NCBI GenBank assembly: GCA_021325515.1
Contig: JAJPHC010000027.1
Location: 1 to 39,787, forward strand
DNA length: 39,787 bases
Direction of reading: 5' to 3'
Source: Acidobacteriota bacterium
Lineage (GTDB): Bacteria > Acidobacteriota > Thermoanaerobaculia > Gp7-AA8
Shown: in pieces, positions 364 through 39,787 of the stretch
How positions within the stretch are numbered: the first letter of the stretch is position 1
How the letters are laid out: the number at the start of each line of letters is the position of its first letter
Made by a program: the position numbers and the translations under genes
The notes under the pieces: generated by a model
What the model saw: only the letters and a program-made list of their open reading frames with translations
What the model was told of the DNA's origin: nothing
Databases searched by the model: none

Positions 364-3300
364 TCACCCCAGTAGCTGCAATACGCCTGTCAGCGGGATC
401 TTCAGCCATTGCGGGCGGTTATTGAGCTCGTAGGCGATCTCGTAGAGCGCTTTCTCCAACAGATACGCGTCCAGCAGAAGGTGCAGCTCCTCGTTAGATG
501 ACGGCAGGTGCGCTGCGCCTCCGGTTGCCGCCAGGTACGCGCGCAGGAACGCCTGGCTCGTGCTCTGATACCAGAACGCCGCCGCGGCATCGAGCAGCGC
601 CTCATCCTCGGTGCGAATGACCACGCCGGGCGCCTGGCCGTACACGACCGCATAAGGCGCATAGTGGAGCGAGCGCAGCATGCCGGCGACATCCCGCAAC
701 GCGCTGCGCTTGATGCGCCGCTCGCTCAATGGCCGCGCCGGCTCCCCTTCGAAGTCGATGATGACGAAATCGTTGCCCGTATGGAGCACCTGCCCGAGGT
801 GGTAGTCGCCGTGGGTGCGCAGACGCTGGCCCGTAATGCGGCCCTCGATGAGTGCGCGGAATCGCGCCTGCAGCTCCGCCTCGCGCGCCAGCAACATCTG
901 CGTGTCGGGATGGTCCTTCGCACGGCGCCGCAGCAACTGCATCGTCTGCACCGCCTGCGTCCGCATCGACTGATAGATCGAACGTTGATAGTGCGGCGTA
1001 AAGGGCTCCGGCGCGAACGCCGGGATATCGGGGCGGGAGGCGAGCGCGAGATGCATCTCCGCGGTCCGCCGGGCGAGCAGCTCGACATCCGCGATGTAGC
1101 CGTCGAGAAGTGCTTGCGCGGCCGCCTCATTGGGCCGCCGCATCGCTTCCACCGCCGAGGCATCGCTCAGCACGCGATCGAAGAAGCGCCCGATCGCATC
1201 GAGCGTGTACGTCCACGCATCGCCCGAGTTCGGCGTATAGCTCTGCAGAATCGCAGCGGTCATGCCGTCGAGCTCCAGCGATCCCGCGATCCGCGGCGTG
1301 TGCGTGAACGACGTCTCCTCATTGAGGAAGCGCGTGACCTCCAGATCCGTATTGATCCCCGGCTCCATCCTGCGGATCAGCTTCATGAACAGCCGCTGCC
1401 CGTACACGATCGCCGTGTTGCTCTGCTCGGCCTTGAGGACCTGTCCCTCGAGCGGCTCGTTGCCGCGCAATGCGCGAAGCTCGCGCGTGACCGAGGCCGT
1501 GAGCGGGCCGGTCTTGCGCTTGCGCGCGATCGCGTCGAGAAGCGCCGCGGCAAACGCGGGACTGGCCAGCGGCTCGTACAGAAGCTGGCCGTCGCTCAGA
1601 CGCGCGATGAATGTCGACGGCTTCTTCTCGCTCTCGTCGGAACGGCGCACCTGCGTCAGCGCAAGCGGCAGGAGATACGTCTCCGGCTCGCCATCGGTGT
1701 ACTCGATGTCGACAATCGCGAGATGTCCCGCCTCTTTCGGCAGAGCGACGGAGTCGCGCACCGCAGTCGTGTTGATCGTCTTCGCCTTGCCGCCGAACCA
1801 GCGGCGCGTCCGGATGTAACCCCCAACTGCGCGTTGCAGCGCGTCGCGATTGCGGTCCGCGAAGACCTCTTCCCACGTTTTCGCCGCAATGAGCGGCAGT
1901 TCCACTGCGCCGCTGATCTCGCCGGAACTGCTGCGCTCGAGCTGAAACCAGTAGAACGCGAACGGCCCGAGATTGAGGAAATAGGGCCGCTCGCCGATTT
2001 CGGGGAAGCGGGTCCGGCCCGACAACTCCACCGGCACCATGCCGCGAAACTGCGAAAGATCGAGCTCGAAGCACTGCACGATGCGCGAGAGATTCGCCAC
2101 CACGAGCAGCGTCTCATCCTCATACCGCCGGATGAAAGCGAGAATCTTGCGATTCTCGGGATGGAGAAACTCCATCGTGCCGCGGCCGAACGCCTTGTAT
2201 CGCTTGCGCGTCGCCAGCAGGCGCTTCATCCACCACAACAATGAATACTGGCTGTTCTGCTGCGCTTCGACGTTGACCTGCTCATAGTGATATTGCGGGT
2301 CGATGATCACCGGCAGAAACAGCTGCTGCGGATTCGCGCGCGAAAATCCGGCATTGCGGTCGGCGCTCCACTGCATCGGCGTGCGCACGCCATTCCGGTC
2401 GCCGAGATAGATGTTGTCCCCCATCCCGATCTCGTCGCCGTAATAGATGATCGGCGTACCGGGAAACGAGAACAGCAGTCCGTTCATCAGATGAATGCGG
2501 CCGCGGTGATTGCCCATCAGCGGCGCGAGCCGCCGGCGGATGCCGAGATTGATGCGGGCGTTCGACTCCCGCGCATACGTGCGCCACATGTAATCGCGGT
2601 CTTCCTCCGTGACCATCTCCAGCGTCAGCTCGTCGTGATTGCGGAGGAACAGCGCCCACTGGCAGGCGTCGGGGATCGGCGGCGTCTGCGCCATGATGTC
2701 GACGATCGGGAAGCGGTCTTCCATCGCCAGCGACATGTACATGCGCGGCATGACCGGGAAGTGGAACGCCATATGGCACTCGTCGCCGTCGCCGAAATAC
2801 GGCAGCGTGTCTTCCGGCCACTGATTCGCCTCGGCCAGCAGCATCTTGCCCGGATACTTTGCGTCGAGGTGCGCGCGCAGCTTCCGGAGATAGACATGCG
2901 TCTCCGCGAGGTTCTCGCACGTCGTTCCTTCACGCTCATAGAGATAAGGAATCGCATCGAGGCGGAACGCGTCGACGCCCAGATCCATCCAGAACTCGAG
3001 CACCTTGAAGAGCGCGTCGTGCACGGCGGGATTGTCGAAATTCAAATCCGGCTGATGCGAGAAGAAGCGGTGCCAGTAATACGACTTCGCCTCGGGGTCC
3101 CACGCCCAGTTCGACGTTTCGAAGTCCTTGAAGATGATGCGCGCATCCTTGTACTTGTCCGGCGTGTCGCTCCAGACGTAGAAGTCGCGCCACGGGCTGC
3201 CCGGCTTTGCACGCCGCGACTTCTGAAACCACGCGTGCTGATCGCTGGTGTGATTGACGACGAGCTCGGTGACGACGCGGATGCCGCGGCGGTGCGCCTC

Positions 3301-3561
3301 CTTCATGAAATTGCGGAAGTCGGCCAGCGTGCCGTAGCTGGGATTGACGGCCGTGTAATTGGCGATGTCATAACCGTCATCGCGCAGTGGAGACGGATAG
3401 AAGGGCAGGAGCCAGAGGATATTGACGCCGAGATCCTGCAGATAATCGAGCTTGCGGGTCAGACCCTGAAAGTCGCCGATGCCGTCGTTGTTACTGTCGA
3501 AGAACGCACGCACGTGCGTCTGATAGATGATCCCGTCCTTGTACCAGAGGTCGTCGCTCAC
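364..3561 (-). CDS. treS: Trehalose synthase / maltokinase fusion protein
   Basis: A bifunctional cytoplasmic enzyme of the GlgE pathway. The N-terminal GH13 domain interconverts trehalose and maltose, and the C-terminal domain phosphorylates maltose to maltose 1-phosphate with ATP. Residues 1 to about 545 carry the TreS barrel, opening WYKDGIIYQTHVRAF. The GH13 catalytic residues are visible: nucleophile D202 in FRLDAIPYL, acid/base E244 in LLAEANQWPED, and D310 in LRNHDELTLEM. A maltokinase N-cap-like segment (RRWFGGKAK) follows near residue 590. The kinase motifs HGDYHLGQVL (about 917) and IDFEGEPARP (about 935) are intact. At 1065 residues it has the usual length for TreS-Mak fusions. It lies 126 bp downstream of glgE on the same strand, supplying that enzyme's substrate. 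Start ATG at 3559-3561. Confidence 0.95.
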   Translation of the reverse strand: MSDDLWYKDGIIYQTHVRAFFDSNNDGIGDFQGLTRKLDYLQDLGVNILWLLPFYPSPLRDDGYDIANYTAVNPSYGTLADFRNFMKEAHRRGIRVVTELVVNHTSDQHAWFQKSRRAKPGSPWRDFYVWSDTPDKYKDARIIFKDFETSNWAWDPEAKSYYWHRFFSHQPDLNFDNPAVHDALFKVLEFWMDLGVDAFRLDAIPYLYEREGTTCENLAETHVYLRKLRAHLDAKYPGKMLLAEANQWPEDTLPYFGDGDECHMAFHFPVMPRMYMSLAMEDRFPIVDIMAQTPPIPDACQWALFLRNHDELTLEMVTEEDRDYMWRTYARESNARINLGIRRRLAPLMGNHRGRIHLMNGLLFSFPGTPIIYYGDEIGMGDNIYLGDRNGVRTPMQWSADRNAGFSRANPQQLFLPVIIDPQYHYEQVNVEAQQNSQYSLLWWMKRLLATRKRYKAFGRGTMEFLHPENRKILAFIRRYEDETLLVVANLSRIVQCFELDLSQFRGMVPVELSGRTRFPEIGERPYFLNLGPFAFYWFQLERSSSGEISGAVELPLIAAKTWEEVFADRNRDALQRAVGGYIRTRRWFGGKAKTINTTAVRDSVALPKEAGHLAIVDIEYTDGEPETYLLPLALTQVRRSDESEKKPSTFIARLSDGQLLYEPLASPAFAAALLDAIARKRKTGPLTASVTRELRALRGNEPLEGQVLKAEQSNTAIVYGQRLFMKLIRRMEPGINTDLEVTRFLNEETSFTHTPRIAGSLELDGMTAAILQSYTPNSGDAWTYTLDAIGRFFDRVLSDASAVEAMRRPNEAAAQALLDGYIADVELLARRTAEMHLALASRPDIPAFAPEPFTPHYQRSIYQSMRTQAVQTMQLLRRRAKDHPDTQMLLAREAELQARFRALIEGRITGQRLRTHGDYHLGQVLHTGNDFVIIDFEGEPARPLSERRIKRSALRDVAGMLRSLHYAPYAVVYGQAPGVVIRTEDEALLDAAAAFWYQSTSQAFLRAYLAATGGAAHLPSSNEELHLLLDAYLLEKALYEIAYELNNRPQWLKIPLTGVLQLLG

Positions 3562-3619
3562 AGCCGCCTCCGGAGTGGCGAGAAAGAGCGAGAAGCGAGC
3601 TCAATGAACCACAATCTCA

Positions 3620-3661
3620 ATTCTTCATTCTGAATTCTGAAATCTGAATTCTGAATTTCGC
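3620..3661. repeat. Heptad repeat between glgE and treS
   Basis: Four contiguous heptamers (ATTCTGA at 3627, 3634 and 3648; AATCTGA at 3641) sit between AATTCTTC and ATTTCGCTT. The same two flanks surround the TTCTGCG heptamers near 70-105 and 275-310, so this is a variant of the element at 1-353. It occupies the 126 bp gap between glgE and treS-mak. Confidence 0.8.
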
Positions 3662-3687
3662 TTCTGACTCTCAATCTCAAAGCAACC

Positions 3688-5652
3688 TCACAGGTAATAC
3701 TCAAAGTCCCTCTCGCTCCGCACCTTGCGGCGGATGCGAAAGATGTGCGCCGGCACGGCGTGCGGATTCAATTGCACGAAATTCCTCGGGCCGTGCCACG
3801 TATAGCGCGCGCCGCTCATCAGTTCGTGTACCTGGAACGGGCGGCCCGTATCGAGCTGCAGCGATGGCAGGTCGAGCGTGACCCAGCCGGCCTGCGTATT
3901 GTGGGGATCGGTATTGACGACCGTAAGGACGACATTGTCGCCGCTCGTCTTGCTGTAGCAGAGGATCTGCTCGTTATCGCATTCGTGAAAGCGCAGCGTC
4001 GCGTTCTGCTGCAATGCGGGATTCTCGCGCCGGATGCGATTGACGAGCGCAATCAGCGGAGTGAGGTCCTCTTCCGTCTCGCCCCACTGCTTCGCTTCGT
4101 ATTTCTCGGAGTCGAGGTACTCCTCACTCCCCGCCTCGCGCGGCTGGTCGACCATCCGCTCATACGCCGGTCCATAGATCCCGTAATTCGCGGAAAGCGT
4201 CGCGGCGAGGATCAGCCGATTCACGAACGCGCCCCGCCCGCCGAACTGCAGATATTCCGTCAGGATGTCCGGCGTATTCGGCCAGGCATTCGGCCGGAAG
4301 AAATCGCTCACCGGCGGCTTCGTGATCTCCTGGAAATACTCCCGCAGCTCATAAGGCGTATTGCGCCACGCGAAGTACGTGTACGACTGTGTGAATCCTG
4401 CCTTGGCCAGCCAGTACATGATCTTCGGCCTCGTGAACGCCTCGGCCAGAAAAATGAGATCGGGATGCTTTCGCTTCAACTCGGCGATGCACCACTGCCA
4501 GAACGGCAGCGGCTTCGTATGCGGATTGTCGACGCGGAACACGCGGACTCCGCGCGCGATCCAGAACTCGAAGACGCTGCGCAGTTCCTCCCACAATGGC
4601 CGCCACGCGGCTGATTCGAAGAAGAAGGGATAGATGTCCTGATACTTCTTCGGCGGGTTCTCGGCGTATTGAATCGTCCCGTCGGGACGGCGGAGAAACC
4701 AGTCGGGATATTCGGTCACATACGGATGATCGGGCGAGGCCTGGAACGCGATGTCCATCGCGACTTCGATTCCATGCTTCTGCGCGGCATCGAGCAGCGA
4801 CGCGAAGTCCTCCATTGTGCCGAGGTCCGGGTGAATGCTCTTGTGGCCGCCTTCTTCGCCGCCGATCGCCCACGGGCTGCCGGGATCGTCCGCGGCGGCG
4901 ATGACGGAATTGTTGCGGCCCTTGCGGAACGTCGTGCCGATCGGATGAATCGGCGGGAGATAGAGGATGTCGAAGCCCATCTTCGCGATGCGCGGCAGTT
5001 GGCGCTCGACATCGCGCAGCGTTCCGAATGAGCGCGGGAAGAGCTCGTACCAGGTGCTGTATGCGGCCTTGCGGCGATCGACTTCGATTGCATGCTCGCA
5101 CGCGTAACGCGTGGCAAGGGTGCGGTCCGCGTTGCGCCACATCAGCGCGAGGAGATCCTCACTCCACACTTCCTCGATCTTCTCCTCGAGCTCCGCATCG
5201 CTCTCGAGGAGCTGCACGAACGTGCCGAGGCGGCGGCGATCGCGTGCGTTGGCCCGCGCCGCGGCGTCGCGGATCATCTGCAGGCCGATCGCGAGCTGGA
5301 CGTCGAGGCCGCTCTGCTGCGCATCGACGCGCTTGCGCAGATCGCGATGCCAGGTCAGGAAGTGATCGATCCAGCCTTCGAACGTGAAGTAGTAGAAGCC
5401 GGGACGATCGACCGTGATCTCGCAGCGCCACCGGTCATTGAAGCGCGGCTGGAGACGTACCTCGCGCCACTTCTTCTCTGACTGATGCCGGTGCAGCGCG
5501 ACTGCGCTGATGACATCGTGGCCGTCGGCGAAGATGTCCGCCTCCAGAAACACGACGTCCCCTTCGGCGCGCTTTGCGGGAAAGCGGCCGTCATCCACGC
5601 GGGGAGAGACACCTTCGATCACGACACGGCGGCGACCGTCAAACGACTCCAT
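3688..5652 (-). CDS. glgE: Alpha-1,4-glucan:maltose-1-phosphate maltosyltransferase
   Basis: GlgE, a GH13_3 enzyme that transfers maltosyl units from maltose 1-phosphate to the non-reducing end of alpha-1,4-glucan. Length 654 residues, normal for the family. An N-terminal beta domain (about 1-100, with GFYYFTFEGWIDHF) is followed by a helical segment and the barrel. Diagnostic segments include YELFPRSFG (203-210), LPPIHPIG (232-239), TFRKGRNN, nucleophile D375 in VFRVDNPHTKPLPFW, and acid/base E404 in FLAEAFTRP. The gene is followed on the same strand by treS-mak, so trehalose can be converted to glucan by two adjacent genes. No branching enzyme is present in the window. ATG at 5650-5652; I see no strong Shine-Dalgarno sequence. 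Confidence 0.95.
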   Translation of the reverse strand: MESFDGRRRVVIEGVSPRVDDGRFPAKRAEGDVVFLEADIFADGHDVISAVALHRHQSEKKWREVRLQPRFNDRWRCEITVDRPGFYYFTFEGWIDHFLTWHRDLRKRVDAQQSGLDVQLAIGLQMIRDAAARANARDRRRLGTFVQLLESDAELEEKIEEVWSEDLLALMWRNADRTLATRYACEHAIEVDRRKAAYSTWYELFPRSFGTLRDVERQLPRIAKMGFDILYLPPIHPIGTTFRKGRNNSVIAAADDPGSPWAIGGEEGGHKSIHPDLGTMEDFASLLDAAQKHGIEVAMDIAFQASPDHPYVTEYPDWFLRRPDGTIQYAENPPKKYQDIYPFFFESAAWRPLWEELRSVFEFWIARGVRVFRVDNPHTKPLPFWQWCIAELKRKHPDLIFLAEAFTRPKIMYWLAKAGFTQSYTYFAWRNTPYELREYFQEITKPPVSDFFRPNAWPNTPDILTEYLQFGGRGAFVNRLILAATLSANYGIYGPAYERMVDQPREAGSEEYLDSEKYEAKQWGETEEDLTPLIALVNRIRRENPALQQNATLRFHECDNEQILCYSKTSGDNVVLTVVNTDPHNTQAGWVTLDLPSLQLDTGRPFQVHELMSGARYTWHGPRNFVQLNPHAVPAHIFRIRRKVRSERDFEYYL

Positions 5653-27128: not shown

Positions 27129-27557
27129 GGTGGAGTGCTCATGAGTCTAGCAGCGATACTCTCGTCAGAGGATTTGGCGGAGCCGGTGCTCCCGAGCGTC
27201 ACCTGAAGACCCCGAACGCGACGTACATTTCAATGAGGCGCGCAGCCCCGAGTGGGAGTCGTCGAAGTTCGAGTGGGCTCCGCCCGTCGGTGAGGTGACC
27301 CACATGAAAGCTTTCCTGAAGTTTCGCGAGCAGAAAATGCGCGAGCTATTCAAAATGGAGTGAAGCAGGCTCCAATCGCCCCATTGTCACCGCGCTTCCC
27401 ACAAAGATTGAGTGGTCGGCTGATCGTAGACTCACATGCCGGCTGATCGATTCTGATTCCACCCGCTGCCGGCGATCATCGCGAGCGACCCTGGACCCAC
27501 ACCAATCGCGGCCGCCGCCGCCATCCGCGCTCCTCATGAGAAAATCACCCATCACCC
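27129..27557. other. Divergent intergenic region with a possible gene remnant
   Basis: A 429 bp gap between the divergent histidine kinase and Ser/Thr kinase genes, which must contain their promoters. On the plus strand a frame open from 27151 to the stop at 27361-27363 encodes 70 residues ending KAFLKFREQKMRELFKME. Its second half reads like natural protein but has no start codon or full domain, so it may be a decayed gene end. Two 23-bp repeats lie at 27417-27462. I identify no confident -35/-10 pair. Confidence 0.45.
27417..27462. repeat. Two 23-bp repeats with CGGCTGATCG core
   Basis: CGGCTGATCG occurs at 27417 and 27440, exactly 23 bp apart, followed by a less conserved 13 bp. The same core and spacing make up the five-copy array at 36836-36950, in the same orientation. 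The copies end about 95 bp before the Ser/Thr kinase start. Confidence 0.85.
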
Positions 27558-31472: not shown

Positions 31473-31514
31473 GAACGATGAACGATGAACGATGAACGAT
31501 GAACGATGAACGAA
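31473..31514. repeat. Heptad tandem repeat (GAACGAT)n
   Basis: Five exact GAACGAT units (31473-31507) and a sixth variant GAACGAA follow the EAL gene stop. An inverted CGTTCATCG about 20 bp further on could pair with them. The unit length of seven matches the elements at 1-353 and 3620-3661. The rest of 31470-31638 holds nothing I can support. Confidence 0.85.
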
Positions 31515-32411: not shown

Positions 32412-35560
<3,149 letters not shown>

Positions 35561-35564
<4 letters not shown>

Positions 35565-36811
35565 CGCGCCTCCCACAAAGCCCGCATCGGCACTGCGTGC
35601 ATGGATTCCCCGAAGCTCGCGCTGATCTCGCCATCATAAAGGACGACACCGCGGACGAACCGCTTCCCCGCGGCGTCCCTGAGTTTCCGCAGCCCTCGGA
35701 AATCATTCTCCGTTACCGTCGCCGAAGCCTTGACTTCGACCCCGGCAAGCTGACCGGCTCCCTGCTCGAGCACGATGTCGACCTCGAACCCGTCACGATC
35801 ACGAAAATGGAAAAAGGAGATCGGAATGGGACGCCAGCTCGCCTGCCGGCGTAGCTCCTGAAGCACGAATGTTTCGAGGAGCGGACCGAGACTCTCGCGA
35901 TCGTGCCGTAGCCGCGCGGTATCCACTCCGAGGAGCGCGCAGGCCACGCCGGTATCTCCCATGTGAAGTTTCGCAGCCTTGACGAGACGGCTCAGGCGAT
36001 TAGTGTGCCACGAAGGAAGAAGGTCGACGAGAAAGACTCTTTCGAGCAGCGTGACGTACTCGTGAATGGTTTGCCTAGTGACCTGAAACGGTCCCGACAA
36101 CTCCTCGAAGTTGACGAGACGCGCCGTGTATCCCGCGGCTACGGCGAGCAGTCGTGGCAGAGCGTCGAGCGCGCGGATGCGGGAGAGCTCGCGGACGTCG
36201 CGCTGCACGTGCGTTTCGACATAATCGCGGTACCAGGCCATACGGCGCGGGGCTGCACGCCGCGCCAGGGCCGCCGGATAACCGCCTGCGACGATGCGCT
36301 GGGCGAGATCCTGTCCGAGCCGTTCGCTCGTTCGTGTTTTGAAAGACCCGTGGAAAAGCGTCTCGAGAAACGCCGAGGGCTTGCGGGCCAGCTCGCACTG
36401 AGAGAGAGGGTGGAGACGAAGAATTCCCATCCGGCCGGCGAGTGAGTCGGCGAACGCCGGCACGAGCAGAACGTTCCCGGAACCGGTGAGGATGAAGCGC
36501 CCCGCGGTGCGGCGGCGGTCGACCTCCGACTTGATCGCCGTAAACAGCGCGGGTACGCGCTGCACTTCGTCTAGGATGATGCGTTGCGGGAGATCGGCCA
36601 CGAAGCCGGCCGGATCGCTTTCAGCAGCCCGGCGCGCCGCATCATCGGCGAAGGAGATCGTCCGATACCCGCGACGCTCTCCGACCAGGCGCGCCAGAGT
36701 GCTCTTGCCGCACTGCCTCGGGCCATGAATCAGAACCACCGGCGTGTCTGAGAGCGCCGCCCGCAAACGGGGAATAAGAAAGCGAGGAAAGAGAGGAAAT
36801 CCGCGCGGCAC
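35561..36811 (-). CDS. AAA ATPase with DUF4143 domain
   Basis: A 416-residue ATP-binding protein of the AAA_14/DUF4143 type. Walker A is GPRQCGKST (30-38), Walker B is IILDEVQ with D81-E82, and sensor-like FILTGSGN follows. A winged-helix segment ([19 protein letters not shown]) precedes a C-terminal DUF4143 region with nuclease-like residues D...E/VEVKAS (FEVDIVL, then [11 protein letters not shown]), a pattern reminiscent of PD-(D/E)xK folds. Its role is unknown, but such proteins are frequent in mobile and defence regions. The start is GTG at 36809-36811, the farthest start codon in the frame. Its stop overlaps the hsdR start, so the two are translationally coupled. Confidence 0.88.
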
Positions 36812-36835
36812 GCGCTCGATGATAACCGCCCTGTC

Positions 36836-36950
36836 CGGCTGATCGCAAGCTGATACCCCGGCTGATCGTAAACTTGTCTGGCGGCTGATCGTAAACTTAT
36901 CAGTCGGCTGATCGTAACCTCGGCAAGCGGCTGATCGTCAACAGCAACGC
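36836..36950. repeat. Five phased 23-bp repeats upstream of the DUF4143 gene
   Basis: CGGCTGATCG begins at 36836, 36859, 36882, 36905 and 36928, an exact 23-bp period. The central copies share a longer core ending GTAAACTT. The array starts about 25 bp upstream of the DUF4143 GTG, in its expected promoter. It could be an operator for a cooperative DNA-binding protein, or the multiple-repeat end of a lost insertion element. Confidence 0.93.
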
Positions 36951-37044
36951 GCAGAGCAGGACCGATCCCAGATCGGCGGCATGGAATCGCCCGAGGGACA
37001 CTGCCGTTAGTTCAAGCCACTGGATTGGGGATTCCCGGTCGGCC

Positions 37045-37074
37045 AAAGGCCTCGGCGGATTCGCCGGGGTCTTT
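37045..37074 (+). terminator. Strong Rho-independent-type hairpin
   Basis: A 13-bp stem (AAAGGCCTCGGCG, loop GATT, CGCCGGGGTCTTT, two G-T pairs) is followed by CGTTTT on the plus strand. Flanking A3/T3 could let it work in both directions. It separates the DUF4276 gene from the 23-bp repeat array, suggesting the DUF4143-hsdR pair has its own promoter. The remainder of the 324 bp gap (36951-37135) shows nothing else I can support. Confidence 0.75.
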
Positions 37075-37135
37075 CGTTTTGCGGAAACACATTCAAGCCC
37101 CAACCTCCACTTTGCCGCTTGGGTGCTAGCGCAGA

Positions 37136-37750
37136 TCATTGGACGGCCTCTAACAGTGCTTCGCGGAAAACTGCGAAGCTGCGTGAGCGATTCGAGACCG
37201 GCACAACGAGCTTTCCAAGGGCACGGGCGACTTCCGTTTTGCTCAGTCCAGACTCAAAGTAGCCGGCCCTCTGCAAGATGCGCTCGAACGCCTCCCAAGT
37301 ACCGCCCTCGATGGCGTCGGGATCGCGATAGCCGGATTTCTCCGGGATAGTCTTGGAGACTTTAGGATAGATCGTACGAACTGCATCCCAATCGCCGAAA
37401 TACCAAGCTTCCAACTCCTCGATCGCAATGCGATTCAAGACCTGCCATTGGGTTGATGTTCCCTGGCGAGTGCGGAGGCCGGCGCCTGCTGCGGCCTCCT
37501 CCATGATCTCCTTGAGACTGTGACAGTCCTGATTATCACGATCGACCACAACCACCACGCGCCAGTTCTCCGGAAGCCAGCTCCGATAGCCCTGCAAACG
37601 CGCAGGCAGGTTTCGAAGGAGATCATCTTTTCCCTGAGACGGATAGACGTTGAATGTAGCGCGGTTTCCGATCAAGCGTGGAAGGAGCTCCCGCAAGAAA
37701 ACTTCCATTGATCGCTCTTCGACCAGGATCTCCAGGTGCGCAGCCCTCAT
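37136..37750 (-). CDS. DUF4276 family TOPRIM-like protein
   Basis: A 204-residue protein resembling DUF4276. Motifs fit a TOPRIM-type metal site: Glu in the first strand ([15 protein letters not shown]11/E12), and D70-x-D72 at the end of a hydrophobic strand ([11 protein letters not shown]). A third acidic group (E111, E112, E114 in [13 protein letters not shown]) follows. This suggests a nuclease or effector role. It overlaps the upstream ATPase gene by 4 bp (ATGA), so the two are probably a functional pair like RloA-RloB or AriA-AriB. The family has no settled function. The assignment to TOPRIM is by motif reading. Confidence 0.75.
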
Positions 37751-38973
37751 GCGGTCGCTCGTCCCCGCGTCGGAGCGCCCTGATTCACCAGTGGATCGCC
37801 GATTCCAAAACGGCCTTCCAACCAGAGATGGCCGAGCGATGCTCCGGCGTCCATGAATTCCTGGACTCCCTGGATATCGGCTGCGCGAACGGCTTGCGTA
37901 TATCCGCTGGGGTCCCTGTACAACACACGAACTTCCTGCGGCCGAAGGGCGTTGACGAAGAAAGGGGAGTGCGTGGTCACGAGCAATTGCCCCCTCTCAG
38001 AAGCCTTGCGGCATTCCTCCGCTAATTCCGGCAGTAGTCTCGGATGAAGGAAGTTCTCCGGCTCTTCGATGCCAATGAATGGCGGTGGATTGGGGTCGTA
38101 AAGAAGCACGAGGTACGCGAGCATTTTCAGAGTTCCATCCGAGGCGAAGCGCGCCAGCACTGGATTCTCGAACGGAGCATCCTTGATCTGCAGCAGGAGT
38201 CTGCCATCCGGCATCGCTTCGGCAAGCACTCGTTCCACGCGAGGCACGCGCTCGCGTAAGACCTGAAAGACTTTTTCCAAACGGTCAGGATGCTGCTCGG
38301 CCAGATACTGGATCACGTTCGCTACGTTGTCGCCGGTCCGGGAAAGGCGCTCCTGCGGACCAGCCTCAGGTTGTCCCCGGGTCTCATCGACGGAAAAGTA
38401 CGACACATACCAGCCAGTGATGAAGTCCCGCAGCACGGCAACGCGGGGATGGTCGGCGAACTGGCCGAGGGCATTGACAGCGATCAGATCGGGGGATTTC
38501 AATGGGATATCGACACGCACATCGTTCGTATCCGGTAGCGCACCGCTCGTGGCACGACCATGACCTTCTTTGTAGTCAAGGAACCGAAACGGCTTGCCGT
38601 GTTTTCCGCGGGTCCATTGCAGCCATTCCTCAGTCACTATCGGCGACCCACGAAGCTCGTCGATGGCCAGATGATAAGTAATGGGTGAAAAGTCAGGCTC
38701 GCGGTACTTGATCTCGATGACCAAAGGCCCCTCTGACCCGCGGGTCTTCAGTTCCTTGGCACGTCCGCGCCGGTCCCAGGCACGGCGAAGGCCCGATTCG
38801 AAACACTCCGACAGAAAGGCGAACACATCGAAGACCGTCGACTTGCCGCTCCCGTTCGGTCCGAGGAGAACGGTGAGGGGCGTTAGGTTCTTGAGTTCGA
38901 CATCCCGGAGAGCCCGGTAGTTCTTGACTCGTAGGTATTCGATGCGTGCGGTCTTTGCTTTCTTTGCGGGCAT
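37747..38973 (-). CDS. ABC-type (AAA_21/OLD-like) ATPase
   Basis: A 408-residue SMC/ABC-like ATPase. Walker [10 protein letters not shown] (38-46), signature-like ASDGTLKML (277-285), Walker B with [13 protein letters not shown] (E303/E304) and the switch histidine in LLVTTHSPF (H335) are all present, so it should hydrolyse ATP. The C-terminal [13 protein letters not shown] is typical of AAA_21 family members. Unlike full-length OLD proteins it has no TOPRIM domain; the adjacent DUF4276 protein supplies a candidate. GGAG 9 nt before ATG 38971-38973 supports the start. It follows hsdS by 25 bp, so the pair is embedded in the restriction operon. Confidence 0.9.

Positions 38974-38998: not shown

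Positions 38999-39787
<789 letters not shown>

Follow-up and report, generated by a model that had tools for sequence, protein, structure and literature searches.

The window (the whole 39,787-bp stretch of acidobacterial DNA analysed here) contains an ATPase gene with a tandem repeat array directly upstream of its start (Table 1). The best PADLOC model for the ATPase is PDC-S01 (PDLC04790, E 3.7e-163), and 28/28 aligned homologues match PDC-S01 family models. Judged by these matches, the gene behind the array is assigned to PDC-S01, a candidate single-gene phage defence. In the accessible text of PMC12988326, PDC-S01 joins an ATPase and a PD-(D/E)XK-type domain in one protein and is given as the fourth commonest defence gene across prokaryotes, which makes its mechanism of interest; validation is described there as pending for most candidate systems, including PDC-S01. 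The predicted surroundings are those of a defence island, with hsdR downstream of the ATPase gene and a HEC-01-type pair and hsdS upstream. The hsdR gene is likely translationally coupled to the ATPase gene because its GTG, the likely start codon, shares bases with the ATPase stop (GTGA). An inverted repeat resembling a terminator, with a T-rich stretch after it, was observed by eye on the + strand in the interval from the DUF4276 gene to the array (37046–37079); this repeat was not reported by the scan.

Table 1. Positions of the array, its promoter elements and the surrounding genes in the window.
Feature	Position	Strand	Description
hsdS	38999–39787	-	type I specificity subunit; runs off contig end; context
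HEC-01-type pair	37136–38973	-	DUF4276 (37136–37750) and AAA_21 (37747–38973); upstream context, outside the array unit
Array	36836–36940	-	five cores of 13 bp, TTrCGATCAGCCG in gene sense, spaced at exactly 23 bp; TGACGATCAGCCG is the most distal core
13-bp cores	36928–36940, 36905–36917, 36882–36894, 36859–36871, 36836–36848	-	
-35-like hexamer	36843–36848	-	TTGCGA; inside proximal repeat
-10-like hexamer	36819–36824	-	TATCAT; 18 bp from -35, one repeat period beyond last core
PDC-S01 ATPase	35561–36811	-	416 aa; Pfam AAA_14 (STAND-like) and DUF4143; PADLOC
hsdR	32412–35564	-	type I restriction subunit
Two-copy array	27417–27449		approximately 110 bp 5' of a gene for a Ser/Thr kinase; without adjoining ATPase

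The CGGCTGATCG cores start at 36836, 36859, 36882, 36905 and 36928 and span 36836–36937, and every step is exactly 23 bp. The sequence-only reading had described five such cores at 23-bp steps without drift, and this description is confirmed. In the window, an identical 10-mer recurs at a constant step at most five times in a row, and in 50 dinucleotide-preserving shuffles at most twice. In gene sense, the repeat unit is AA.yTTrCGATCAGCCG followed by approximately six variable bases, and is larger than the 10-mer first noticed. The distance from the array to the ATPase start is 25 bp. A second array on the same contig repeats this core twice at the same spacing, and no further exact core pairs at 23-bp spacing are present elsewhere in the 5.38-Mb genome. 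The two-copy array may be what remains of a PDC-S01 locus that was lost, or it may be a second target. It sits just past the end of a short open frame that ends in MRELFKME and a stop codon. Two other candidate identities were rejected. The genome contains 104 single near-matches to the 13-mer, but the window is CGATC-rich and other arrays are absent, and no claim of a genome-wide regulon is made. A CRISPR-like array does not fit, as the variable part is merely about 10 nt and the promoter sits inside the repeats.

The array overlaps the predicted promoter of the ATPase gene, as the sequence-only reading had presumed. The two hexamers listed in Table 1 are the only sigma-70-type promoter match in 35400–37300, and the -10-like hexamer lies 7 nt before the GTG start codon. 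Among the homologues, TATAAT-like hexamers cluster at exactly 6 nt ahead of the start codon in 9/28, 19/49 and 16/73 members of three identity classes, and counts at other distances are mostly approximately 0–2 in the first two classes and 0–10 in the third; start codons were picked automatically and some may be wrong. The transcription start is probably the start codon, and the mRNA leaderless, because the -10-like hexamer is approximately 6–7 nt from the start codon. The copies closest to the gene are specialised. Base 3 of the core is A (TAcaaT) in 20/22 last copies and in 24/80 other copies (p=2.5e-7), and is G (TTGcaA) in 15/22 penultimate copies and in 17/58 distal copies (p=0.002). Where an array extends to the start codon, its final copy has the sequence TTAcaAT and supplies the -10 box, and the copy before it favours TTGcaA as a -35 box. 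The 22–23-bp period matches the distance from the -35 box to the -10 box. From these patterns, array and sigma-70-type promoter are predicted to be interwoven, with the -35 box in one repeat and the -10 box in the last repeat or one step after it.

Arrays were looked for in other bacteria by motif and by protein. A scan of a genome collection for the exact core pair returns 32 stretches, many of which are coincidences in coding sequence. Arrays are found directly 5' of DUF4143 ATPase genes in Thermoanaerobaculia, Rokubacteria, Betaproteobacteria, Acidobacteria and Streptosporangium. The Streptosporangium array is in the opposite orientation relative to its gene and, therefore, array orientation can flip. 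An exact-pattern scan of viral contigs has no match, and a phylum scan with a strict degenerate pattern has matches in G000 and G013 only; these scans are nearly empty because the motif drifts.

Approximately 150 ATPase homologues were sampled by protein and not by motif, and arrays of any period were sought within 220 bp around the start. A significant upstream array is present in 27/28 homologues with at least 52% identity, which include near-duplicates from one genus (L074, L080 and L082), and all 27 have a period of 23. Control windows from the same loci contain none (0/82). These homologues come from Acidobacteriota, Methylomirabilota and Pseudomonadota. As a group, their self-similarity peaks at a shift of 23 (0.595, z 13). 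Homologues with 44–52% identity peak at a shift of 22 (0.427, z 15.5) and their motif has drifted; those with 38–44% identity peak at 23/22, and the signal below 38% is weak. Below 52% identity, fewer than half of the members have an individually significant array. Copy number is commonly four to six, and some members have two. Copies of PDC-S01 on plasmids and viral contigs also carry arrays. Going by these homologues, the array is a property of a large PDC-S01 clade and not of every DUF4143 gene.

On the IMG/VR viral contigs, PDC-S01 homologues are associated with four copies of TTTCAATTGGTCG at 22 bp (L228) and four copies of ACTTTRGATWATTCC at 23 bp (L250). Similar arrays with unrelated motifs accompany distant DUF4143 ATPases, namely GAAATCTCGGAGT at 22 bp (L089/L090, in G032 and G035) and ATGGCCTCGTG at 21 bp (L068, in G013). 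Because these distant ATPases carry similar arrays with unrelated motifs, the array habit may be older than the clade of the window.

Protein identity and motif similarity are correlated across 46 arrays (Mantel rho 0.72, 0/999; best permutation 0.35). Paralogues within a single genome have unrelated motifs, with similarity at the level of shuffled columns (L014 and L068 in G013; L082 and L089 in G032). The window and L014, which are from different genera, share their motif (0.92). Because paralogue motifs differ and the motifs of the window and L014 agree, the comparison points to the PDC-S01 protein itself, rather than a host regulator, as the candidate reader of the array. A correlation between protein and array would also arise if a gene and its adjoining promoter were inherited together, and the co-variation is support and not proof. 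The same data bear on a reading in which the repeats are sites for another host-encoded activator or repressor and PDC-S01 is not the binder. The array and the predicted promoter clearly overlap, as such a reading would have it. However, PDC-S01 is the only gene common to the same-motif loci in Acidobacteriota, Methylomirabilota and Betaproteobacteria, and a host regulator would be expected to give the opposite of the pattern seen in the one-genome paralogues. We consider a host regulator unlikely.

The domain order of the ATPase is an ATPase domain, a winged helix (approximately residues 210–285) and a C-terminal alpha/beta domain that is DUF4143/PD-(D/E)XK-like. The AlphaFold2 model, built with 37 sequences, has a pLDDT of 92.3. 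The winged-helix helices (215–227, 235–242 and 246–258) and the strands and helices of the C-terminal domain are predicted with high confidence. The Walker A and B residues and E343, D345, E359 and K361 are invariant in 37 diverse sequences. The latter four are the residues expected of PD-(D/E)XK enzymes, and the C-terminal domain is predicted to be nuclease-like. A PDB search by sequence with the ATPase gives P-loop matches only. In the fold search, residues 1–295 (the ATPase domain and winged helix) best match the archaeal STAND/AAA ATPases PABY2304 (2qen; Z 16.0, rmsd 4.3 A) and SSO1545 (2fna; Z 15.6, rmsd 4.0 A), with approximately 17% identity. The PD-(D/E)XK-like C-terminus is outside the matched part, and no PDB entry was matched to it by the fold search. 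Lower-scoring matches of the ATPase domain and winged helix include NLR/CED-4 and Avs5.

The winged helix is a candidate for the part of the protein that determines specificity. When similarity of the ATPase domain is controlled for, winged-helix similarity is associated with motif similarity among 25 close arrays (partial 0.30, 0/499) and hardly so among all 45 arrays (partial 0.14, 34/499). Only for the close set does this association suggest that the winged helix sets specificity. DNA binding is not universal among STAND winged helices, and the homologous winged helix of NLR-type STAND proteins is generally not known to read DNA.

The array is probably the promoter-operator of PDC-S01, and PDC-S01 most likely binds it and represses itself, with the coupled hsdR co-regulated. 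PDC-S01 would recognise its own array through the winged-helix domain, with each repeat taking up one protomer or dimer and several of these lying next to one another. The bound protein would cover both promoter boxes and hold its own leaderless transcription low. When PDC-S01 is depleted or its nucleotide state changes, for example during phage infection, the promoter would open and PDC-S01 would be expressed, here together with hsdR.

The number and phasing of the repeats also bear on a reading in which the array is a loading platform on which STAND/AAA nuclease protomers assemble, with release or activation of the oligomer forming part of the defence. The sites are unusually many, their phasing is exact and without drift, and the protein resembles oligomerising STAND ATPases, including helical Avs5 assemblies. 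However, the promoter already accounts for the two proximal copies, and copy number varies down to the two-copy members. A loading platform seems improbable. Similarly doubtful is a model in which the private, co-evolving arrays are a resting place of the defence complex, such that stripping or outcompeting the protein would derepress the gene and free the nuclease.

The sequence-only reading had offered a cooperative operator for restriction before an ATPase-hsdR unit as one explanation. An operator before this unit is supported in essence, with the array overlapping the ATPase promoter and the start of hsdR inside the ATPase stop. The assignment to restriction is not supported, as the array follows PDC-S01 through loci without hsdR. 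With the hsdR of the window as tblastn query, hsdR-like sequence is present in just three of the fetched homologue loci, and a close hsdR lies directly behind the ATPase only in L200. This locus, from another phylum, contains PDC-S01 with a 23-bp array and has the same GTGA overlap as the window. Its hsdR, the reading of which is split into two tblastn pieces, is 79% identical to that of the window over the main aligned stretch. This shared coupling is what favours a reading in which the array evolved primarily to control hsdR, with the ATPase as passenger, but arrays are equally conserved at PDC-S01 loci without hsdR, and we regard it as very unlikely. Because it travels with PDC-S01 through such loci, the array is better assigned to the PDC-S01 ATPase than to restriction. 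The arrangement suggests that translational coupling can bring a type I restriction gene under the control of a defence gene inserted before it.

The other explanation offered by the sequence-only reading was a leftover IS21-family end. IS21-family ends carry multiple short repeats, and the array is like them in having several short repeats at regular spacing. PDC-S01 genes are also clearly mobile, being found on plasmids and viral contigs. The array is unlike these ends in that its place, at the start codon of a single gene family, is conserved and in having neither istA/istB nor an opposite end. IstA-type genes do not adjoin it. The genome has a single IstA (NF033546), which is on contig C13 and not on this contig (C29) and has no core in its surroundings; G013 has none. 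The core is absent as an array from seven IstA loci (L047–L051, L054 and L055). In the loci checked, the array is single and always 5' of the ATPase, and within 6 kb or the fetched sequence of 14 ATPase genes there is no array in the opposite orientation, only scattered single near-matches. The missing istA/istB, the missing opposite end and the array-free IstA loci refute an IS21 end, and a leftover end of this or another transposon is extremely improbable.

Multi-site autoregulatory or iteron-type promoters are known from Rep iterons, ParR-parC and many toxin-antitoxin and phage repressor operators. The array is like these in that tandem direct repeats with a constant step overlap the promoter from which the presumed binder is expressed. 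It is unlike iteron-type operators in that this presumed binder is a STAND-like ATPase carrying a winged helix and a nuclease-like domain, in that the period equals the -35/-10 spacing and the repeats thereby supply both boxes, and in that the mRNA looks leaderless. No description of such arrays was found in the literature outside subscription sources, and the accessible text of PMC12988326 and PMC13356809 describes no regulatory array for PDC-S01. Relative to PDC-S01 as described in that text, the array is a new element. It provides a predicted DNA target for each PDC-S01 family member that can be read from sequence, and offers a phage-free reporter for PDC-S01. What PDC-S01 binds, which of its domains reads DNA and what relieves repression become accessible questions.

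Some arrays with a similar core and 23-bp spacing have no recognised ATPase adjoining (L018, reverse complement 4012–4070; L032, reverse complement 4713–4800; L036, 4522–4575). In L018, a Fic gene is 260 bp downstream of the array. In L042, a four-copy array of the window type (approximately 3900–4000) abuts a Fic gene (3074–3850) that is truncated at its 5' end, as if recombination or an assembly join had replaced the ATPase exactly at the array. Because the Fic gene is truncated at the array in L042, the arrays without ATPase in these four loci look like relics or assembly joins.

Heptanucleotide tandem repeats are numerous in the window at 1–305, 3615–3657 and 31473–31513, some of them at the contig end. 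Their units are ACGCAGA, AGAATTG, ATTCTGC, TCTGAAT and GAACGAT, the last present in 5.9 copies.
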